DNA of 64,000 bases from Akkermansia muciniphila (lineage in GTDB: Bacteria > Verrucomicrobiota > Verrucomicrobiia > Verrucomicrobiales > Akkermansiaceae). The notes under the pieces were generated by a model. That model was given only the letters and a program-made list of their open reading frames with translations. It was not told where the DNA came from and did no database searches. Below are positions 15,531-25,145 of this stretch, one piece after another. The translations under genes were made by a program, and so were the position numbers. How positions within the stretch are numbered: position 1 is the stretch's first letter; each line of letters opens with the position of its first letter. The stretch lies in the NCBI GenBank assembly GCA_945888515.1, contig CAMDAD010000013.1, positions 1 to 64,000 on the forward strand, given 5' to 3'.

Positions 15531-16346
15531 ATGCGCTTTTTTCTCTTATGCTTATTGATCTTAAGCTCGCACTTTGCCAATTCCGCTCCACCACTTTATC
15601 CGTTTCAAAATTCTGTTCGCTCTCTCAGCGTGGATGAAGGAGTGACGCTAATCAAGGAACTTGGATATCCCGGTATTGGTTCGGTTTACCCGCAAGACTT
15701 AGCGGCATACCAAGCGGCATGCAGCAAAACTGGGCTCAAGGTTTTTAGTATTTATTGCAGCGCAAAAGTTCATAGCACTGGTTACACTTACGATGCTAAG
15801 ATCAGCAAAGCCATTGCGCTTCTGAAAGGTACAGATGCGATTGTCGAACTCAATGTGCAGCGCGGTGACGATCCGCTGGAGGCACACGCGATAGCCTTGG
15901 TGAAACAAGTGGCTGCTGATGCAAAGGCTGCTGGACTTAGAGTAATTCTTTATCCTCACACGAATGATTACATCGAACGCATTGACCACGCGCTGCGTAT
16001 CGCCAAGGCTACCGGATGCGACAATGTGGGCATTGCTTTCAATCTTTGTCATTTCCTTAAAGTCCAACCCAAGGATAATCTCACGGAAATAGTATGTGAG
16101 GCAAAGGATAGACTCTGGAGCGTCAGTCTTTGCGGTGCCGATATCGATGGTAACGATTGGAACACACTGATCAGACCGCTCGATGAGGGAACTTTCGATC
16201 AAACTAAATTCCTGAGCTTACTCAGAAAGCAAGGCTACGACGGTGCCATTGGTCTGCAATGCTTCGGTATCCGCTTAGCTCCGCGTCAGCACCTTAGCCG
16301 TTCATTACATGCATGGGAAAAACTGCACTCTAAAAAGACGTTCTGA
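15531..16346 (+). CDS. Secreted sugar isomerase/epimerase-like TIM-barrel protein
   Basis: The 271-residue product has a clear signal peptide (about 1-19, cleaved near NSAP) and then the alternating strands and helices of the xylose-isomerase-like / AP-endonuclease-2 superfamily. Examples are a KELGYPGIGSVYP start, a VILYPHTN strand and a conserved IAFNLCH histidine segment. Such domains bind a metal and act on sugars or inositols. The start at 15531 follows an AAAGGTGG ribosome-binding site; ATG 15528 and GTG 15522 are alternatives. It ends the sulfatase run and may process a released sugar in the periplasm, which is inference. Confidence 0.75.
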   Translation: MRFFLLCLLILSSHFANSAPPLYPFQNSVRSLSVDEGVTLIKELGYPGIGSVYPQDLAAYQAACSKTGLKVFSIYCSAKVHSTGYTYDAKISKAIALLKGTDAIVELNVQRGDDPLEAHAIALVKQVAADAKAAGLRVILYPHTNDYIERIDHALRIAKATGCDNVGIAFNLCHFLKVQPKDNLTEIVCEAKDRLWSVSLCGADIDGNDWNTLIRPLDEGTFDQTKFLSLLRKQGYDGAIGLQCFGIRLAPRQHLSRSLHAWEKLHSKKTF

Positions 16347-16401
16347 AGTTTGATTTGCAAATGTCACGACTAAACGAGCGTGTGTCTGTCTAGCCATACA
16401 C

Positions 16402-16776
16402 TCACATGACGAACCAATCGCCCGATGGAATTTTTGTTAGGCATTCTGTGGGTAACCGATACTGCCAAGCCCAGCATTCGAATTGTTGTTTTGTTCGTAT
16501 GCTTACGACGATTCTAATGCGCTCGTATTCATGACCTTCGAAATCGTCTAGTTGACGCAACGTATCGTCAGGAACCGTATATAACTCCCCAATGATTGTC
16601 GTTCCTGTGGTCCGATCAAAAATGGCACCAGGATACCAGTCAACTCGATAAAGGTGTCCCAGAGTCGTAGCGCAATCGACGAACTCCGCTTTTTCCATTC
16701 GCCAAGCATTGCTTCCATCTTGTCGCAAGGTTCCATAAACAAACACTGATTCGCTTTTTATCGTTTCTTCATGCAT
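16402..16776 (-). CDS. Gamma-glutamylcyclotransferase-like (GGCT/AIG2) protein
   Basis: This 124-residue protein starts, after a short lead, with VFVYGTLRQDG, the signature of the GGCT-like fold. It continues with a PGAIFD loop, a GELYTVPDDTLRQLDDFEG segment and a YERIRIVV strand. Family members cleave gamma-glutamyl amines or peptides by cyclisation through an acidic residue; the glutamates in the DDFEGHEYER stretch are candidates. The bacterial YtfP-type function is not firmly known. It faces the sulfatase run tail-to-tail. Confidence 0.8.
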   Translation of the reverse strand: MHEETIKSESVFVYGTLRQDGSNAWRMEKAEFVDCATTLGHLYRVDWYPGAIFDRTTGTTIIGELYTVPDDTLRQLDDFEGHEYERIRIVVSIRTKQQFECWAWQYRLPTECLTKIPSGDWFVM

Positions 16777-16801
16777 GCACTGTGAACAAATCGTTTTATT
16801 T

Positions 16802-17015
16802 GGGGAATAACTTAAGAATATCTCTGTAACAAGTGGAAAGCGTTGACCTTGGTCAAGCTCATGCTGATTCTATAAGCGACGAATTCACAACTTATTCATC
16901 CCATGGAACGCTTTTGCAGCAAGTGGGGAACACCGTTTTTCGGAGTTTATTCACATGAAGAAGAAGATGAATTTAGTTTATTATTTTAAAAAGAATTCTT
17001 AGAGCGTGTGAATAA
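16802..17015. other. Candidate replication origin: DnaA-box cluster around an AT-rich stretch
   Basis: The gene-free region 16777-17163 contains TTATTCACA (16947-16955, plus) and TGTGAATAA (17007-17015, the same box on the minus strand), both exact matches to the DnaA consensus TTATNCACA. Three 7-of-9 matches lie upstream: 16802-16810 on the minus strand, and 16881-16889 and 16892-16900 on the plus strand. Between the two perfect boxes, 16956-17000 is about 80 percent A+T and could act as an unwinding element. Two perfect parS sites and mnmG lie within 5 kb. Function as oriC is inference. Confidence 0.45.
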
Positions 17016-17105
17016 TAAAGCCACGGAGCCATTTTCGTTTCGCCAGGGAGAGATGCAGTGGCCAATCACGCTAATAGAGATTTTCCCAACGACACGTTCG
17101 GAAAC

Positions 17106-17137
17106 AAAAACCGCCTGCTTCGTCAAAAGAGGCGGTT
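17106..17137 (-). terminator. Rho-independent terminator of rplU-rpmA
   Basis: Arms AACCGCCT (17109-17116) and AGGCGGTT (17130-17137) form an eight-base stem. Read on the minus strand, the last arm runs into a TTTTT tract (17110-17106). It sits 27 bases past the rpmA stop and is well placed to end the operon. Confidence 0.8.
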
Positions 17138-17163
17138 GAGTGGATCAGATGGTAGGCTTGTTA

Positions 17164-17412
17164 TCAGTTGGCAGCCACTACGTTGACGCGTGTGCCATCT
17201 TTGTCGAAAAGCACTCTACCATCGCTCAGGGCGAACAAGGTGTGGTCCTTGCCCATCCCTACGTTCGTGCCAGCGGTCCAGCGAGTGCCACGCTGACGGA
17301 TGATGATGTTTCCCGCGATAACAGCTTGGCTGCCGAATTTTTTCACACCAAGGCGCTTGCTGCGCGAGTCGCGTCCGTTTTTAACTGATCCTTGTCCTTT
17401 TTTATGGGCCAT
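17164..17412 (-). CDS. rpmA: 50S ribosomal protein bL27
   Basis: The 82-residue protein begins MAHKKGQGS and has the [19 protein letters not shown] and [13 protein letters not shown] segments that define bL27. It lies near the peptidyl transferase centre and its N-terminus contacts the tRNA acceptor end. No N-terminal propeptide is present. It follows rplU by 27 bases, the conserved order. Confidence 0.97.
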
Positions 17413-17439
17413 AACAAATGAGTGGTTAAGAAGTGTAAA

Positions 17440-17751
17440 TTAGGCGTTGATGCCGGTGATTTCGAGTTTGGTGAGATGACGGCGGAAACCGATTTTCTTG
17501 TGGAATCCTTTGCGACGCTTGAATTTAAAAGCCACACCTTTGTCACCGCGAAATTGTTCTACGACTTTGGCAGTGACAGAGGCACCAGCTACCGTCGGAG
17601 TTCCAACAGTCACGGATGCGCCTTCGCCTACCAAAAGGACGTCGAATTTGGTTTCACTGCCGACTTCGAGTGCGAGTTTTTCCACATCGATTTTATCGCC
17701 TTGTTGGACGCGGTATTGTTTACCGCCTGTTTTGATGACTGCGTAGCCCAT
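17440..17751 (-). CDS. rplU: 50S ribosomal protein bL21
   Basis: The 103-residue product begins [15 protein letters not shown], the standard bL21 opening, and ends with the [17 protein letters not shown] basic segment that binds 23S rRNA. A longer open frame reaches 17817, but homology starts at the ATG at 17751. It heads the rplU-rpmA operon, which ends at the terminator at 17106-17137. A stem-loop lies in its upstream region (17795-17814). Confidence 0.96.
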
Positions 17752-17794
17752 GATCGTTAGAAGGTTATGCTCTTGCGAGCGGGGGCGAAGTTCA

Positions 17795-17826
17795 CCACAA
17801 AAGAAACTTTGTGGCAAGTTTTTTTT
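17795..17826. repeat. Inverted repeat with T-tract between rplU and tsaE
   Basis: CCACAAA (17795-17801) and TTTGTGG (17808-17814) form a perfect seven-base stem with a six-base loop; on the plus strand an eight-base T-run follows (17819-17826). On the minus strand the same stem lies in the probable rplU leader, 44 bases before the start. Because no plus-strand gene ends here, a leader structure is more likely than a terminator. Some bacteria have an L21 leader RNA, but no match is claimed. Confidence 0.4.
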
Positions 17827-18457: not shown

Positions 18458-19129
18458 TTAAAAGAGAACGCGACTGTCGAGATTAAAAATTTGCCCTGAT
18501 GTATGAGGCAATTGAGTATGCAGCGAATGAATAAAAGCAGCTACGGACTCTTCGTTATTGAATCGTGACAGGCAGTGTGCTTGTCGAATTTCTTCCCGAC
18601 GCTTTGGGGAGACAGTAGCAGTCATACGATTTTCCAGAAATCCTGGTAGAACAAGATTCACGCGAATGTTGGCGCCACCCCATTCTTTCGCGAGTGACTG
18701 GGTAAGACCAACGAGCGCCGCTTTGGCACTAGCGTAGGCGATCTGACCCAGCGGTGGATGAAAAGCAGAGTAGCTTCCCAAAAATATCACATGTCCTCCG
18801 CATTCTTTTATCATATGCTTGGCTGCGTATTTTGCGGCAAAAGCTGCTCCGCGCAGATTGCTTCGCAACAAACGATTCCAGTCATTAACAGACGTGCGGA
18901 GTAGCAATTCATCCTGTATTTCCCCAGCGGCGGCAATCAGAAGATCACAGGTATGAAGGGAAAAGTAGTTTCGTAACGAATCATTGCAAGTTACGTCCAG
19001 CTCCTGCCGAGATGGACACAAAATCGTCCAGCCCGGCTCATACTTTTGCCAGCAGATTCGCAATTTCTGGGCCAAAGAACCCTTCCCGCCTGTGATTACT
19101 ACTGTTTGAGCCATCGATACGGTAGTCAT
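18458..19129 (-). CDS. Short-chain dehydrogenase/reductase, FabG-like
   Basis: The 223-residue protein has a Rossmann nucleotide site of the form TGGKGSL, an IAAAGE strand, catalytic Ser in GSYSAF and the YASAK catalytic Tyr-Lys pair. This makes it a classical SDR using NAD(P)H. The glycine motif departs slightly from TGxxxGxG. The substrate is unknown. The ATG at 19129 overlaps the stop of the upstream TPR gene as ATGA, and a small lipoprotein gene follows. Confidence 0.85.
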   Translation of the reverse strand: MTTVSMAQTVVITGGKGSLAQKLRICWQKYEPGWTILCPSRQELDVTCNDSLRNYFSLHTCDLLIAAAGEIQDELLLRTSVNDWNRLLRSNLRGAAFAAKYAAKHMIKECGGHVIFLGSYSAFHPPLGQIAYASAKAALVGLTQSLAKEWGGANIRVNLVLPGFLENRMTATVSPKRREEIRQAHCLSRFNNEESVAAFIHSLHTQLPHTSGQIFNLDSRVLF

Positions 19130-19659
19130 TTGGCGTCGATCACAATCGCATGCTCTTCATAGATAATAGAGCATTGAATGGTCGTGGCGATATATTGAAG
19201 CACCTGACTGGCAGGTATGTTGGCGAGTTGCAAATTGATGGTTTTGTTTGTTAAGCGGCCAGCCGGGTCTTTGATGATAAAATTGGGTGAGAATTTTTGT
19301 GCAGTCGCTCTCTTGATTTGAATCGTAAGATTTTCCATGCATTCGGCTACGCTCGCATCGGCATACTCAACCTTAGCGATTTTGGTTTGTTTCATCATGT
19401 TTTCGCGATACCGCGCGGCAAATGCTTCACGGTTCAAGAGCAATTTGTTGAGCGCATAGCGGGCATGCGGATGTTGCGGTTGTGCTTGAAGAACGGCACG
19501 CAGATCTCTTTCTGCTGCGATGACGTCACCGCGATTCATGGCAGAAACGCCGCGATTATAGAGTGCTTGGGGGCTTGATACCGTATTGGATACAGCTTGG
19601 TTTTGTTGAGCCATGCCAAGCGTGCTCATCAGGACTAGGCTAAGGATGGTAGTTTTCAT
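19126..19659 (-). CDS. Secreted TPR protein with C-terminal STN/secretin-like domain
   Basis: The 177-residue product has a signal peptide (about 1-17), one or two TPR-type helices (ALYNRGVSAMNRGDVIAAE...), and a C-terminal stretch with the strand-helix-strand pattern of the short domain found at the N-terminus of secretins and TonB receptors. The start at 19659 is preferred to 19680 because it opens directly into the signal peptide. A periplasmic scaffold role is plausible but not shown. It overlaps the SDR gene. Confidence 0.62.
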   Translation of the reverse strand: MKTTILSLVLMSTLGMAQQNQAVSNTVSSPQALYNRGVSAMNRGDVIAAERDLRAVLQAQPQHPHARYALNKLLLNREAFAARYRENMMKQTKIAKVEYADASVAECMENLTIQIKRATAQKFSPNFIIKDPAGRLTNKTINLQLANIPASQVLQYIATTIQCSIIYEEHAIVIDAK

Positions 19660-19755
19660 ATGCATGGGTTTACACGTCATTCGTGTATTACATAAAGTGA
19701 ATGAATCCCCTCAAAAGACAAGAAAAAAGCGTAACGCAGGTCGACTTTTCAATGA

Positions 19756-21630
19756 TTACGATGTTTCTTGTCCACTTTTTTCTATCCAGATGGCGAGCAG
19801 GGCTAGGTCGGCGGGAGTGATACCGCTGATACGACCTGCTTGTCCGAGAGTTCGTGGCTTGATTTGTGCTAGGCGGAATTTTGCCTCCGTTTTCATCCCG
19901 CGAATCATTTGATAATCGACCCAGTCGGGTATGAGTTTTTCTTCTTGTCGAGCCATTCGGTCAATTTGCACCTGTTGGCGATCGAGGTGTCCCGCGTATT
20001 TTACTTCGGTTTCAATAAGAGGCCAAAGGGTTTGCGGGTAGCGAGAGAGAATTTCTGCGGGTAGATCCGTCCAGGTGTTTTCCATACGCCGAAACCACAG
20101 ATCGAGCTTAATGCCTTCGTGATTGGTTTTCGTAACCCATTGCTGTGCATCAGTGAGTAGCGAAATTTTTTCCGTAGCTCGTCGACTGCGCTCGCCGGCA
20201 ACGAGTCCTATTTCCGCGGCTAACGGAGTGAGGCGAAGATCGGCGTTGTCTTGTCGAAGCAGCAAGCGATATTCCGCCCGACTGGTAAACATACGATAAG
20301 GTTCGGTACATCCACGCGTGACGAGGTCATCGATCATGACACCGAGATACGCCTGATTCCGGCCGAGAACTAGTGCTGGGCGACCAAGGATCTTTAGCGC
20401 AGCATTTGCTCCTGCGAGAAGCCCCTGCCCTGCTGCTTCTTCGTAACCGGAGGTGCCATTGATCTGGCCGGCGAAGTATAAGCCTGCGACTTTTTTTGTC
20501 TCTAGCGTCGGCTTTAGTTGGGTCGGTGGGCAATAATCGTATTCCACCGCATAACCAGGTCGGATGATTTCGCAGCGCTCGAGGCCTGGAATGGTGCGAA
20601 GGAAAGCAAGCTGTATTTCGTAAGGCAGCGATGTCGACACGCCGTTGACGTAAAATTCGTTCGTGTGACGTCCTTCCGGTTCAAGAAAAATCTGGTGCCT
20701 TTCTTTTTCGGCGAAGCGCACAACCTTATCTTCAATCGATGGACAATAGCGCGGCCCTACTCCTTCGATGATGCCGCAATACATGGGAGACTGGTCGAGA
20801 TTGTTGCGGATGATTTCATGTGTCGTGGAGTTGGTATACGTCATGAAACACGGCATTTGTTCCACGTGGAACATCTTATCAGCCCATGGGTTTAGAGTGA
20901 AGATGTCGTTTTCTCCCCTTTCCATGGTATCGTAGAGATAGCTAAAATGCGGAATCGTTTCATCGCCCCCTTGGATTTCGCAACGGTCCAGATCCAACGA
21001 ACGGCCGTTGAGTCGGCATGGGGTACCGGTTTTGAAGCGCTCGACGGTGAACCCTAGGTCCTTGAGGCTATCGCTGACGGTAGAGCTAGCATCGCCCATG
21101 CGACCGCCTTTTTCATTGCGCAGTCCGACGTGCATGAGGCCGCGCATGAAAGTCCCAGCGCTGAGCACGACCGACTTGGCGCGAAACTGCATACCTAGGC
21201 TAGTGGTGATGCCGGTGATTTGGTTATTTTCGACAAGTAGCGTCCCAACATTCCCTTGGTGGATGTCTAGTCCCGGAGTATTTTCCAGAAGCCACTTCAT
21301 GCGGAATTGGTATGCTTTTTTGTCACACTGGGCTCGGGGCGCGCGGGCGCTGGGACCTTTGCTGGAATTAAGCATGCGCCATTGGATGGCTGTGGCATCG
21401 GTATTAAGCGCCATGGCTCCGCCGAGTGCGTCGATCTCTCGAACCATATGCCCTTTGGCTAAGCCGCCGATGGCTGGGTTGCAGCTCATTTGTCCGATCG
21501 TGTCCAGATTTTGCGTGAGCATGGCTACAGAGCAGCCAAGTCGTGCGGCGGCGAGAGCTGCTTCTATACCGGCATGACCGGCTCCTATGACGAGGACATC
21601 ATACTCTTTCGGGTAAACAAACATAGACAA
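19756..21630 (-). CDS. mnmG: tRNA uridine-5-carboxymethylaminomethyl modification enzyme MnmG (GidA)
   Basis: MnmG and MnmE together install the cmnm5 group on U34 of several tRNAs. The 624-residue protein has the FAD-binding [12 protein letters not shown] motif near residue 14 and the conserved [26 protein letters not shown] block, split here over residues about 46-71. A GTPCRL segment, [15 protein letters not shown] and a C-terminal helical domain follow. Codons for residues about 253-258 form a perfect parS palindrome (20858-20873). mnmG is often near oriC, which matters for the origin argument. MnmE is not in the window. Confidence 0.97.
20858..20873. other. parS centromere site inside mnmG
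   Basis: TGTTCCACGTGGAACA is an exact 16-base palindrome identical to a well-known chromosomal parS form bound by ParB. It is embedded in mnmG codons reading MFHVEQ on the minus strand, with no frame disruption. parS sites cluster close to oriC in most bacteria that carry ParABS. parA and parB are not in the window. Confidence 0.9.
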
Positions 21631-21689
21631 AGTGGAGCGCAGTGTAGCACGGACTCCTAGTATCGACCACTGAATTTTTTATCAGCTGA

Positions 21690-21709
21690 TTTGTTCCACG
21701 TGGAACAAA
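21690..21709. other. parS centromere site between mnmG and cdd
   Basis: The 16-base parS palindrome at 21692-21707 is extended to a perfect 20-base palindrome, TTTGTTCCACGTGGAACAAA. It lies in the 80-base gap between cdd and mnmG, 834 bases from the parS inside mnmG and identical to it in the core. Two perfect copies this close are very unlikely by chance. Confidence 0.92.
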
Positions 21710-21710
21710 G

Positions 21711-22097
21711 TCATCGATTGAGGATACCCGCGCTGGGGCGCGGGAGCAATTGTTCCAAAGTAAAGTCGAGATGCTCCCGTCGATTGCAAAGACGTATTTC
21801 TGTGATACCGAACTCTGCCATGACTTGTCGACACGCCCCACACGGTGAGATGGGAGTCTCGGTATCAGCTACGACGACGACGGCGCGCAGCTTGCGTGAG
21901 CCAGCGGCAATGGCGGTCGCGATGGCGGTGCGCTCTGCGCAGATGGTGAGACCAAAGGAGAGATTCTCGACATTGCAGCCGGCAAAAGTGTTTCCTACGT
22001 CATCGATGACGGCAGCGCCGACCAAAAACTGCGAGTAGGGCGCGTAGGCGAGATCGCGCGTTTGCCAGGCAAGTGTTGTGAGCTGTGACCAGTCCAT
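21711..22097 (-). CDS. cdd: Cytidine deaminase
   Basis: The 128-residue enzyme hydrolyses cytidine and deoxycytidine to uridine forms in pyrimidine salvage. The zinc site is complete: CAERTA supplies one cysteine and the catalytic glutamate, and PCGACR supplies two more cysteines, the homotetrameric three-cysteine type. An APYSQFLVGAAV start and NVEN substrate-binding segment are also typical. It lies upstream of mnmG on the same strand, separated by parS. Confidence 0.94.
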   Translation of the reverse strand: MDWSQLTTLAWQTRDLAYAPYSQFLVGAAVIDDVGNTFAGCNVENLSFGLTICAERTAIATAIAAGSRKLRAVVVVADTETPISPCGACRQVMAEFGITEIRLCNRREHLDFTLEQLLPRPSAGILNR

Positions 22098-22423
22098 AGG
22101 TCGACGCTAGCGGAAAACGCTGAGTAGGCAAATGAGAAACTCCAGGAGTTTTAGCCGGGCGGTCAAGTGGTGTCATGAGTTTGAGACGATTCCTCCGTCA
22201 TGGCGGCCAAAGAGAAAAGAATGGCAGAATAGGAGGTATTCTGTTCTCACCGGTCAATTTCAGTAATCTTAGTGGAAACCTGCGGCCTGAGTGGATCGCA
22301 GAGAAATTGGCATTATGAGCATTTGGCGTGACACCTCCGTTTTATCCATCGTATTTTTTGATGCATTTTGATCGAAGCAAATTTCGCTGGCAGAACGGGT
22401 GATTTTGTGGCACATGAGGTTCC
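22098..22423. other. Gene-free region with one hairpin
   Basis: No open frame here looks coding. CAGAATA (22225-22231) and TATTCTG (22237-22243) form a perfect seven-base stem with GGAGG as the loop; there is no T-tract. The region lies between the divergent starts of cdd (minus) and the DUF6580 gene (plus), so it should hold promoters for both, but none stands out. Confidence 0.4.
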
Positions 22424-22993
22424 ATGCATCGGTGGATGAGTTTTGCGGCATTGTTAGTGGTTTTGATGGCATTCCGTTTGGTGGGTGCTTGGCAGGGATG
22501 GATGAATGTCTCTCCGTTACCTGCTTTGTTTTTGCTGAGCATGGTTTGTTTTCACGGGCGTGAGCGTTGGTTGTTGCCATTGTCCGCCTGGGTGATCACC
22601 GACCCGCTGCTGAATGTGTTTTATGGTCATGCGATGTTGGCCTGGGATCAGCTTGGAATCTTGTTTGGTCTTGCAGCTACCCTGTTCTTAGTGCCGTGGT
22701 TGAAAAACTCTTTTTCGTGGTCCAGAGCTCTGACGGCTTCCTTGGTCGCAGCCGTTTTATTTTATCTGGTGACAAACACCGTCTCCTTTTTTGGGCTTCC
22801 CGACTTTTATGAACGCAGTTGGCAGGGCTTTTGGCAGGCGCAATGGTCTGGGCCTGTGGGACTGGGACCGACTTGGGTGTTTTTGCGCAATGCATGCGTG
22901 TCTCACCTGCTATTTACCACACTTTTTCTGCTTGCGCTCCGTCCACTTTACGCGTATCACCCTGCGCCTCTTGCAGGCACGACACTCCGTTGA
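22424..22993 (+). CDS. Multi-pass membrane protein, DUF6580-like
   Basis: The 189-residue protein has about six hydrophobic helices and the pattern of the DUF6580 family: an early NVSPLPALFLL helix, then a polar turn and a WVITDPLLNVFYG segment. No function is known for the family. It lies 24 bases before pdhA on the same strand, but that may be only proximity. Confidence 0.65.
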   Translation: MHRWMSFAALLVVLMAFRLVGAWQGWMNVSPLPALFLLSMVCFHGRERWLLPLSAWVITDPLLNVFYGHAMLAWDQLGILFGLAATLFLVPWLKNSFSWSRALTASLVAAVLFYLVTNTVSFFGLPDFYERSWQGFWQAQWSGPVGLGPTWVFLRNACVSHLLFTTLFLLALRPLYAYHPAPLAGTTLR

Positions 22994-23017
22994 TTCCATT
23001 CACTGAATTTTTTGCTT

Positions 23018-24100
23018 ATGTCCTTTTCCGCCGCTCCTTCGCATCATCTGGATTTCGCATCGTCACCGATCAACCGCGCTTTGACCGCTGAACAAAAAGT
23101 GGAACTTTTGCGCAAGATGATTCGTATTCGCCGTTTTGAGAACGCCTGCTCCAAGTATTACACTTTGGGTCGGATCGGGGGCTTTCTTCACTTATATATC
23201 GGACAAGAATCGGTAGCTGTGGGGACAATCTCCTTGTGCGGAGAAAACGATCATAACATCACGGCGTATCGTTGTCATGGACATGCCTTAGCGAGTGGGA
23301 TGAACATGAATGAGTGTATGGCGGAGCTTTTTGGCAAATATACGGGAAGCGCCAAGGGCAAAGGCGGATCGATGCATTTGTTTGCGCCAGACAAAAATTT
23401 CTGGGGTGGCCACGGCATTGTGGGTGGTCAGACGCCACTGGGCTTGGGCTTGGCATATGGTCTAAAATACAAAGGTCTCCAGGGTGCGGCGTTGTGTTAC
23501 ATGGGCGACGGTGCGGTCAACCAAGGTGCGTTCCATGAATCGCTGAACTTGGCTGCGCTTTTTGAACTGCCCGTTGTCTACATCATCGAGAACAATGGCT
23601 ATTCGATGGGAACCTCTCAGAAGCGTTCTTCCGCCTATCGTGGTTGTCTCGCCCAGCGTGCGGAAGCCTATGACATGGAGTGGGACTTGATCAACGGTTC
23701 CGACATTTACGAAGTGCGCGCAAAAACTCACATCGCCATGGAGCGCGCGCGGAAGGAGTCACGGCCTACCGTTTTGGAAATCACCACCTATCGCTACTAT
23801 GGTCATAGTGTAGCCGATGCGAATGCAAAAAAATATCGTTCTCCTGAGGAAATTGAGAATTACAAAAACAACTATGACCCCATCAACACCTTCCGCAATC
23901 GATTGCTGCAAGAGGGTGTGATCACTCAGGAACAAGCTGATGAGATCAATAAGGAAGCGGGTGATGAAGCAGCGGCAGCGGTGGAATTTGCCGATGCCTC
24001 TCCCGCGCCCAGCATCGAATCAATTATGGACGATGTTTATTGGGAAGTGGATCATAAGACAGCGGCGGGACACACTGGACGTCATTTCTTCAACGACTGA
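23018..24100 (+). CDS. pdhA: Pyruvate dehydrogenase E1 component, alpha subunit
   Basis: This subunit binds thiamine diphosphate and decarboxylates pyruvate. The 360-residue protein shows RRFENACSKYY, GQESVAVG, an RCHGHALASG segment, and the ThDP motif GDGAVNQGAFHESLNLAALF leading to ENNGYSMGT. The phosphorylation-loop-like YRYYGHSVAD segment follows. The start at ATG 23018 is preferred to an in-frame TTG at 23012. pdhB follows after 61 bases. E2 and E3 genes are not adjacent, so they must be elsewhere if the complex is complete. A related branched-chain or acetoin E1 is a less likely alternative. Confidence 0.93.
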   Translation: MSFSAAPSHHLDFASSPINRALTAEQKVELLRKMIRIRRFENACSKYYTLGRIGGFLHLYIGQESVAVGTISLCGENDHNITAYRCHGHALASGMNMNECMAELFGKYTGSAKGKGGSMHLFAPDKNFWGGHGIVGGQTPLGLGLAYGLKYKGLQGAALCYMGDGAVNQGAFHESLNLAALFELPVVYIIENNGYSMGTSQKRSSAYRGCLAQRAEAYDMEWDLINGSDIYEVRAKTHIAMERARKESRPTVLEITTYRYYGHSVADANAKKYRSPEEIENYKNNYDPINTFRNRLLQEGVITQEQADEINKEAGDEAAAAVEFADASPAPSIESIMDDVYWEVDHKTAAGHTGRHFFND

Positions 24101-24161
24101 AGCAAGTACGAGAAACGTAGTATTTTACCCTCATCAATCAATTACACTCAAGCAACTGGAT

Positions 24162-25145
24162 ATGCGCACATTGACCTACAGAGAAGCACTTCGCGAAGGC
24201 ATGGATGAAGAACTGGCCCGCGATGAAAACGTCGTGCTGATGGGCGAGGAAGTCGCCCAATACAATGGTGCCTACAAAGTGACAGAAGGCCTATGGAAAA
24301 AATGGGGAGACAAGCGAATTGTTGACACACCGATTTCCGAGGCCGGTTTCATAGGCATGGGCATTGGTGCCTCGATGCTAGGTGTGCGTCCTGTGATGGA
24401 GCTGATGTTCTGGTCTTTTCATTCGGTTGCCTTTGACCAGCTGGTGAGTAATGCGGCTTGCGTGCGCTACATGTCCGGTGGTTTGATCCATTGCCCGATT
24501 GTGGTGCGTGGTCCTGCCAACGGTGGCACAAATGTAGGCGCCACACACTCCCACATTCCCGAGGGCCTGTTTGCTGCATTTCCAGGTTTGAAAGTTGTCG
24601 CTCCCGCGACTCCTGCCGACGCGAAGGGGTTGATCAAAGCATCCATCCGCGACAACGATCCCGTATTTTTCATGGAAAATACCATACTTTACGGAACAAC
24701 TGGCCCCGTGCCAGATCCGGCGGAGGGAGACTTCGTGATTCCCTTGGGCGTGGCCGATCTGAAGCGCGAGGGTTCCGACCTTTCCTTGATTGCTCATGGT
24801 CGCTCGGTAATTCATTGCTTGGAAGCCGCGGAAACCTTGCAACGCGATCACGGTATTTCCTGTGATGTTCTCGACCTTCGCACCATCCGTCCGCTCGATC
24901 AGGAAGCCATTCTCAAAACCGTGCGCAAAACTCACCGTGTCGTGCTCGTGGATGAGTCGAAAGCCTTTGGTGGAGTATCGGCGATGGTGGCGACCTTGAT
25001 TCAAGACCATTGTTTCGATGATTTGGACGCACCGATCAAGCGAGTGACTTCCCTTGACGCGCCTGCGATTTACTCCAAGCATGTGGAGAACGATCAGCTG
25101 CCGAATCCGAAGCGTATCGTGGAGAAAGTATTGACCATCGCCTAA
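24162..25145 (+). CDS. pdhB: Pyruvate dehydrogenase E1 component, beta subunit
   Basis: The 327-residue transketolase-like subunit completes the heterotetrameric E1. It opens RTLTYREALREGMDEELARD and has the conserved GEEVAQYNGAYKVT, DTPISEAGFIGMGIGA, HSHIPEGLFAAFPGLKVV and DLRTIRPLD segments. A longer frame reaches back into pdhA (23940), but the ATG at 24162 starts the homologous region. It pairs with pdhA directly upstream. Confidence 0.93.
   Translation: MRTLTYREALREGMDEELARDENVVLMGEEVAQYNGAYKVTEGLWKKWGDKRIVDTPISEAGFIGMGIGASMLGVRPVMELMFWSFHSVAFDQLVSNAACVRYMSGGLIHCPIVVRGPANGGTNVGATHSHIPEGLFAAFPGLKVVAPATPADAKGLIKASIRDNDPVFFMENTILYGTTGPVPDPAEGDFVIPLGVADLKREGSDLSLIAHGRSVIHCLEAAETLQRDHGISCDVLDLRTIRPLDQEAILKTVRKTHRVVLVDESKAFGGVSAMVATLIQDHCFDDLDAPIKRVTSLDAPAIYSKHVENDQLPNPKRIVEKVLTIA

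Follow-up and report, generated by a model that had tools for sequence, protein, structure and literature searches.

The gap between a gene of the GGACT family and rpmA holds DnaA boxes facing each other across AT-rich DNA, and a preliminary description had tentatively read it as a candidate oriC. The dnaA gene usually marks replication origins. Could this gap nevertheless be the place where replication of the chromosome starts? We approached the question through the sequence of the element, its conservation in relatives and its position with respect to GC skew, parS and dnaA. The window referred to below is the whole stretch of DNA analyzed, 64 kb in length.

Anatomy and surroundings of the element

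As delimited here by the genus alignment and the skew minimum at 16780, the element comprises the conserved blocks between the GGACT-family gene and rpmA (16781-17019, + strand). Two exact TTATTCACA boxes, one on the + strand (16947-16955) and one on the - strand (17007-17015), face each other across a spacer of 51 bases with 23.5% G+C, which bears out the inverted pair around some 50 AT-rich bases that had been noticed in this gene-free gap. The left box is the best conserved part of the element and reads TTRTTCACA in 10/10 genomes of the window's genus. In the right box the TGTG is invariant in the genus and the remainder is variable, and this second box is not kept in every genus. The pair represents the only exact TTATNCACA sites in the 64 kb. 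Two such sites per window are not rare by themselves (1.2 expected); an inward-facing exact pair within 100 bp appeared in none of 300 first-order Markov simulations of the window. Further boxes upstream had been described as partial, a term too modest for one of them, which is a full match to TTRTNCACA (TTGTTCACA, 16781-16789, - strand), with a TTRTTCACA box at the matching place in at least three other genomes of the genus. The three exact TTRTNCACA boxes span 235 bp of non-coding DNA (16781-17015), the densest 250 bp of the window in this respect. Judging from its sequence, the block TTGGGGAATAACTTAAG (16800-16816, + strand), which the genus alignment shows to be conserved as a G.GAATAACTTG type, is possibly a degenerate DnaA box.

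The core of the element covers 137 nt (16883-17019, + strand). It contains two short repeats on the + strand, TGGAAC (16904-16909), which is GTGGAAC in most relatives, and GTGGGGAAC (16923-16931), located 22 bp beyond the first. Past the left box comes a triplet tract, GAAGAAGAAGATGAA (16957-16971, + strand), represented in relatives by (GAA/GAT)n, and further on the motif TTCTTAGAG (16996-17004, + strand), kept in most of the genus. The AT-rich stretch between the boxes (16956-17006, no strand assigned) is a candidate unwinding element: the 60-mer that starts at 16944 and includes this stretch is the least stable in the window according to nearest-neighbour energies. An Rfam scan of 16300-17800 gave no match.

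Immediately to the left of the element lies the GGACT-family gene (AIG2-like, PF06094, E 4e-25), which the preliminary description had missed and which encodes 124 aa on the - strand (16402-16776), and on the other side rpmA and rplU are also encoded on the - strand. The flanking genes had been thought to converge, an arrangement considered unusual for an origin; this was mistaken, and the worry is unfounded because both neighbours run leftwards. The parS pair and mnmG were indeed found close by. One TGTTCCACGTGGAACA site (20858-20873) is inside mnmG and the other (21692-21707) between mnmG and a cytidine deaminase gene, neither with an assigned strand, and mnmG itself is 3-5 kb from the element, a proximity that can be likened to that of E. 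coli, in which gidA (mnmG) adjoins oriC. The window also carries an SDR gene and a PDH E1 pair (18458-25145), kinds of gene that adjoin the element in some other genera. The only ParB_N match of the genome was located on a contig other than that of parS and the element (C38:8711-8983), and the assembly shows no linkage of parAB to the origin.

Conservation in the Verrucomicrobiia

The rplU gene (L21) served as a handle to locate and read the corresponding DNA in nine further members of the genus. The intergenic DNA was divergent and the 137-nt block was near gap-free in 10/10 genomes (one lacks a base), with 40 invariant columns in the alignment. The order of the core is a TTCACA.GTTATT element, TGGAAC, GGAAC 22 bp on, TTRTTCACA, the GAA/GAT tract, the AT-rich stretch and TGTG, where the tract begins within a few bases of the TTRTTCACA box and TGTG starts the second box. 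More conserved blocks are found upstream of the core, reaching the box at 16781.

A sequence-only model of the 137-nt core (R1) was run on 193 relatives; most family members gave a single strong match each, and matches in the order were weaker. Based on translations, the matches in other genera adjoin pdhC, a short-chain dehydrogenase gene, ribD or a thioesterase gene, not rplU. This speaks against the idea that the boxes have a regulatory role only, in a promoter under DnaA control in front of the GGACT-family gene (16402-16776, - strand) or in a terminator region of rpmA. Its appeal is positional, as the element is upstream of the former and downstream of the latter; however, the same element stands away from rplU-rpmA in those genera, and in other families it does show the link to skew and parS, so we give this explanation practically no credence.

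Beyond these relatives, a degenerate pattern searched over 84,980 species genomes returned 62 records, all Verrucomicrobiota by title and with one match per stretch, among them Akkermansiaceae, Luteolibacter, Haloferula, Persicirhabdus, Rubritalea and others. A second model (R2), used for the class-wide search, matched at E < 0.001 in over a dozen additional families of the class, and several of its matches were full-length with E 1e-9 to 1e-16. Matches at E < 0.001 occurred in 59/285 class genomes, which leaves the majority without one, and many of those outside the family were weak. The R2 matches in Akkermansia-type genomes (E 0.005-0.04) are not significant alone, that is, without parS and skew. 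The genomes of this Akkermansia-type genus have a spacer extended by about one helical turn, within which there may be a degenerate second box. In G039, a member of another family of the order, two weak origin-model matches were detected on the same strand about 500 bp apart (C1:497143-497237 and 497651-497738); this is perhaps a two-part or duplicated origin. Conservation in related Verrucomicrobiota, which had been proposed as a check, extends far past the genus by R1, pattern and R2. Going by these comparisons, the module is widespread and single-copy with a changing gene neighbourhood, as expected of an origin.

Position relative to GC skew, parS and dnaA

On the 86-kb contig that contains the window, cumulative GC skew is lowest at 16780, at the very edge of the element. 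Skew was also calculated in twenty 20-kb stretches for each of five single-contig relatives (G066, G039, G075, G027 and G119). In G066 (Akkermansia-type, 2.65 Mb), 9/10 stretches to the left of the site were negative and 10/10 to the right positive, with the switch within 22 kb of the site; in G039 (3.5 Mb) the figures were 10/10 and 10/10, with the switch within 20 kb; and in G075 they were 8/10 and 10/10. In all three, dividing the circle into halves gives the best split at the site. Since the model matches of G066 (E 0.04) and G039 (E 0.004) were weak, their landing on the skew switch amounts to a prediction borne out. In G027 (C1, 2.8-3.2 Mb) the far arms have the right sign but the signs are inverted up to about 200 kb to either side of the site, which we assume to reflect a symmetrical inversion round the origin. 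The skew of G119 was noisy, and on contig 31 of G006 the minimum was 21 kb from the site within the 120 kb read. The skew test, which had been named beforehand as one that could refute the reading, favours the element, both by the minimum on its own contig and by the -/+ switch at the homologous site in single-contig relatives.

An exact parS was present in 10 genomes, always 2-13 kb from the element and never elsewhere. The distance is 4-5 kb in the window's genus, 5-7 kb in G064, G075 and G105, 13 kb in G018 and about 2 kb in three Akkermansia-type genomes. These positions bear on the possibility that the element is a DnaA-binding regulatory site of the datA or DARS kind, near the origin without being the origin. 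Such sites hold DnaA boxes too, and the window element has only two or three strong boxes, a number found per genome throughout the genus and low for an oriC. But in distant genera the element remains at the skew minimum and near parS despite changed gene neighbours, and extreme AT-rich instability adjoins its boxes, which makes a purely regulatory role very improbable.

The element lies far from dnaA: 0.48 Mb in G119, 0.65 Mb in G064, 2.0 Mb in G027 and 2.6 Mb in G075. In the window's genome dnaA is on another contig of 135 kb with uniformly positive skew, and the adjacency to dnaA that characterizes origins of the dnaA-dnaN type is not found. A stronger box cluster beside dnaA had been named as an observation that would speak against the element; no exact TTATNCACA box is present in the 3.5 kb around that gene. 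With no boxes nearby and a uniform skew on its contig, we rejected an origin at dnaA. The DnaA protein is intact and the signature of its box-reading domain, GGRDHGTVIHA, is present. The chromosome of G075 measures 5.68 Mb, and its dnaA (C1:5471254), about 2.6 Mb away from the origin, is near the terminus, an unusual gene dosage for dnaA.

A second group of boxes is located upstream of icd (C5:4746-5052), with three exact boxes in 306 bp. In most of the genus this place has two + strand TTATTCACA boxes at a distance of about 300 bp, frequently enclosing a reverse box, and the spaced + pair was found in 23/145 family genomes; a reversed-pattern control found none. An icd promoter alone would not account for the pair, which in G006 is located away from icd on the contig that carries dnaA. 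Were this cluster the true origin, the window element would be a secondary DnaA site, and the number and conservation of the icd boxes agree with that reading. Nevertheless, none of the single-contig genomes tested has such a pair, the two Akkermansia-type genomes have no boxes of this kind at icd, and in G066 (2.65 Mb) icd is about 1.26 Mb from the skew switch. Moreover, contig C5 has no parS, and its skew is positive throughout the 100 kb that were read, of which just 4.7 kb lie to the left of the cluster. Lacking the origin signature in skew, parS and relatives, the icd cluster was rejected as the origin, a role that seems most unlikely for it; it is a candidate titration or reactivation locus of the datA/DARS kind.

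A probable origin apart from dnaA and its relation to known systems

Because of the conserved core, the skew switch, the nearby parS and a dnaA gene 0.5-2.6 Mb away, we conclude with high confidence that 16781-17019 represents oriC, where replication of the chromosome starts, and that it is unlinked from dnaA. With skew, conservation and the search around dnaA all favourable, this goes further than the tentative reading from which we started. The element combines what is expected of a DnaA-dependent oriC: a box cluster in a non-coding gap, an AT-rich neighbour, the skew minimum and a single conserved copy. Boxes, instability, conservation, copy number, skew switch and parS linkage were computed; since the steps of its working are taken from DnaA biology, and the anatomy alone is established here, we infer DnaA binding, opening, helicase loading and ParB action at the element. 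DnaA, made elsewhere, would bind the boxes at 16781, 16947 and 17007 plus the weaker motifs between them, and an oligomer would assemble, starting at the box at 16947 and extending over the neighbouring triplets. The AT-rich DNA (16956-17006) would then open, starting at the GAA/GAT triplets, and helicase would load on both strands, while parS 4-5 kb away would recruit ParB for the segregation of the new origins.

An origin defined by its sequence, in a class to which Akkermansia belongs, could be used as a marker when growth rates are estimated from read depth, or to orient genomes in which dnaA is a misleading guide, as in the genome with dnaA near the terminus. The origin of A. muciniphila YL44 was placed via skew, parS and read coverage in a study which also noted no systematic coincidence of origins with dnaA (PMC10197239); that work gave an approximate place without a sequence element, unlike the present one. 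In Methylacidiphilum infernorum, of another verrucomicrobial lineage, GC skew put the origin 250 nt upstream of dnaA (PMC2474590). In the library of papers searched, no verrucomicrobial oriC sequence was found, Akkermansia included.

The origin is a known kind of thing, and the class-wide module appears to be new. As in oriC of the E. coli and B. subtilis kind, DnaA boxes point at unstable AT-rich DNA, there is a skew switch, one copy per chromosome is present and parS is near. In contrast to these, the element is away from dnaA, has few strong boxes and possesses its own class-wide core, GTGGAAC repeats and GAA/GAT tract. The apparently new part is the (GAA/GAT)n tract by the box, on the strand opposite to that of classical DnaA-trios, together with the repeats. 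GTGGAAC is half a parS site, and in Pseudomonas aeruginosa ParB has been reported to bind half-sites (PMC10419367); direct ParB contact with the repeats inside oriC is therefore possible. A broader proposal is that the Verrucomicrobiia have in common a single ancestral origin module, off dnaA and shifted from one gene neighbourhood to another, with a variant of basal unwinding in which DnaA would engage (GAA/GAT)n of a polarity opposite to that of DnaA-trios, and with GTGGAAC repeats that would let ParB or non-canonical DnaA act in oriC. We put this forward tentatively, as something we would sooner doubt than back.

The basal unwinding system with DnaA-trios (PMC8287927, PMC6669920) is the closest parallel for the tract, as both have a box, a repeated triplet a few bases on and AT-rich DNA. 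The strict and loose trio definitions follow PMC8287927 and PMC7561715, and the orientation of the box with respect to the trios follows the C. difficile sequence and general background on the system. The strict rule (on the complement of the TTATNCACA strand, three or more 3'-[G/A]A[T/A]-5' triplets no farther than 16 bp from a box) held at the left box for 0/10 genus and 0/3 Akkermansia-type sequences and at the right box for 0/10 genus sequences, and with this failure in all 13 sequences classical trio membership was rejected. The loose NAN rule is not decisive because 37% of random AT-rich sequence satisfies it. The difference from DnaA-trios lies in the strand: after TTATTCACA the element has 5'-GAA/GAT-3' on the top strand, whereas C. 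difficile has 5'-CTACTACTA-3' (PMC7561715), and a triplet tract conserved on the 'wrong' strand offers a direct test of the generality of the DnaA-trio rule.
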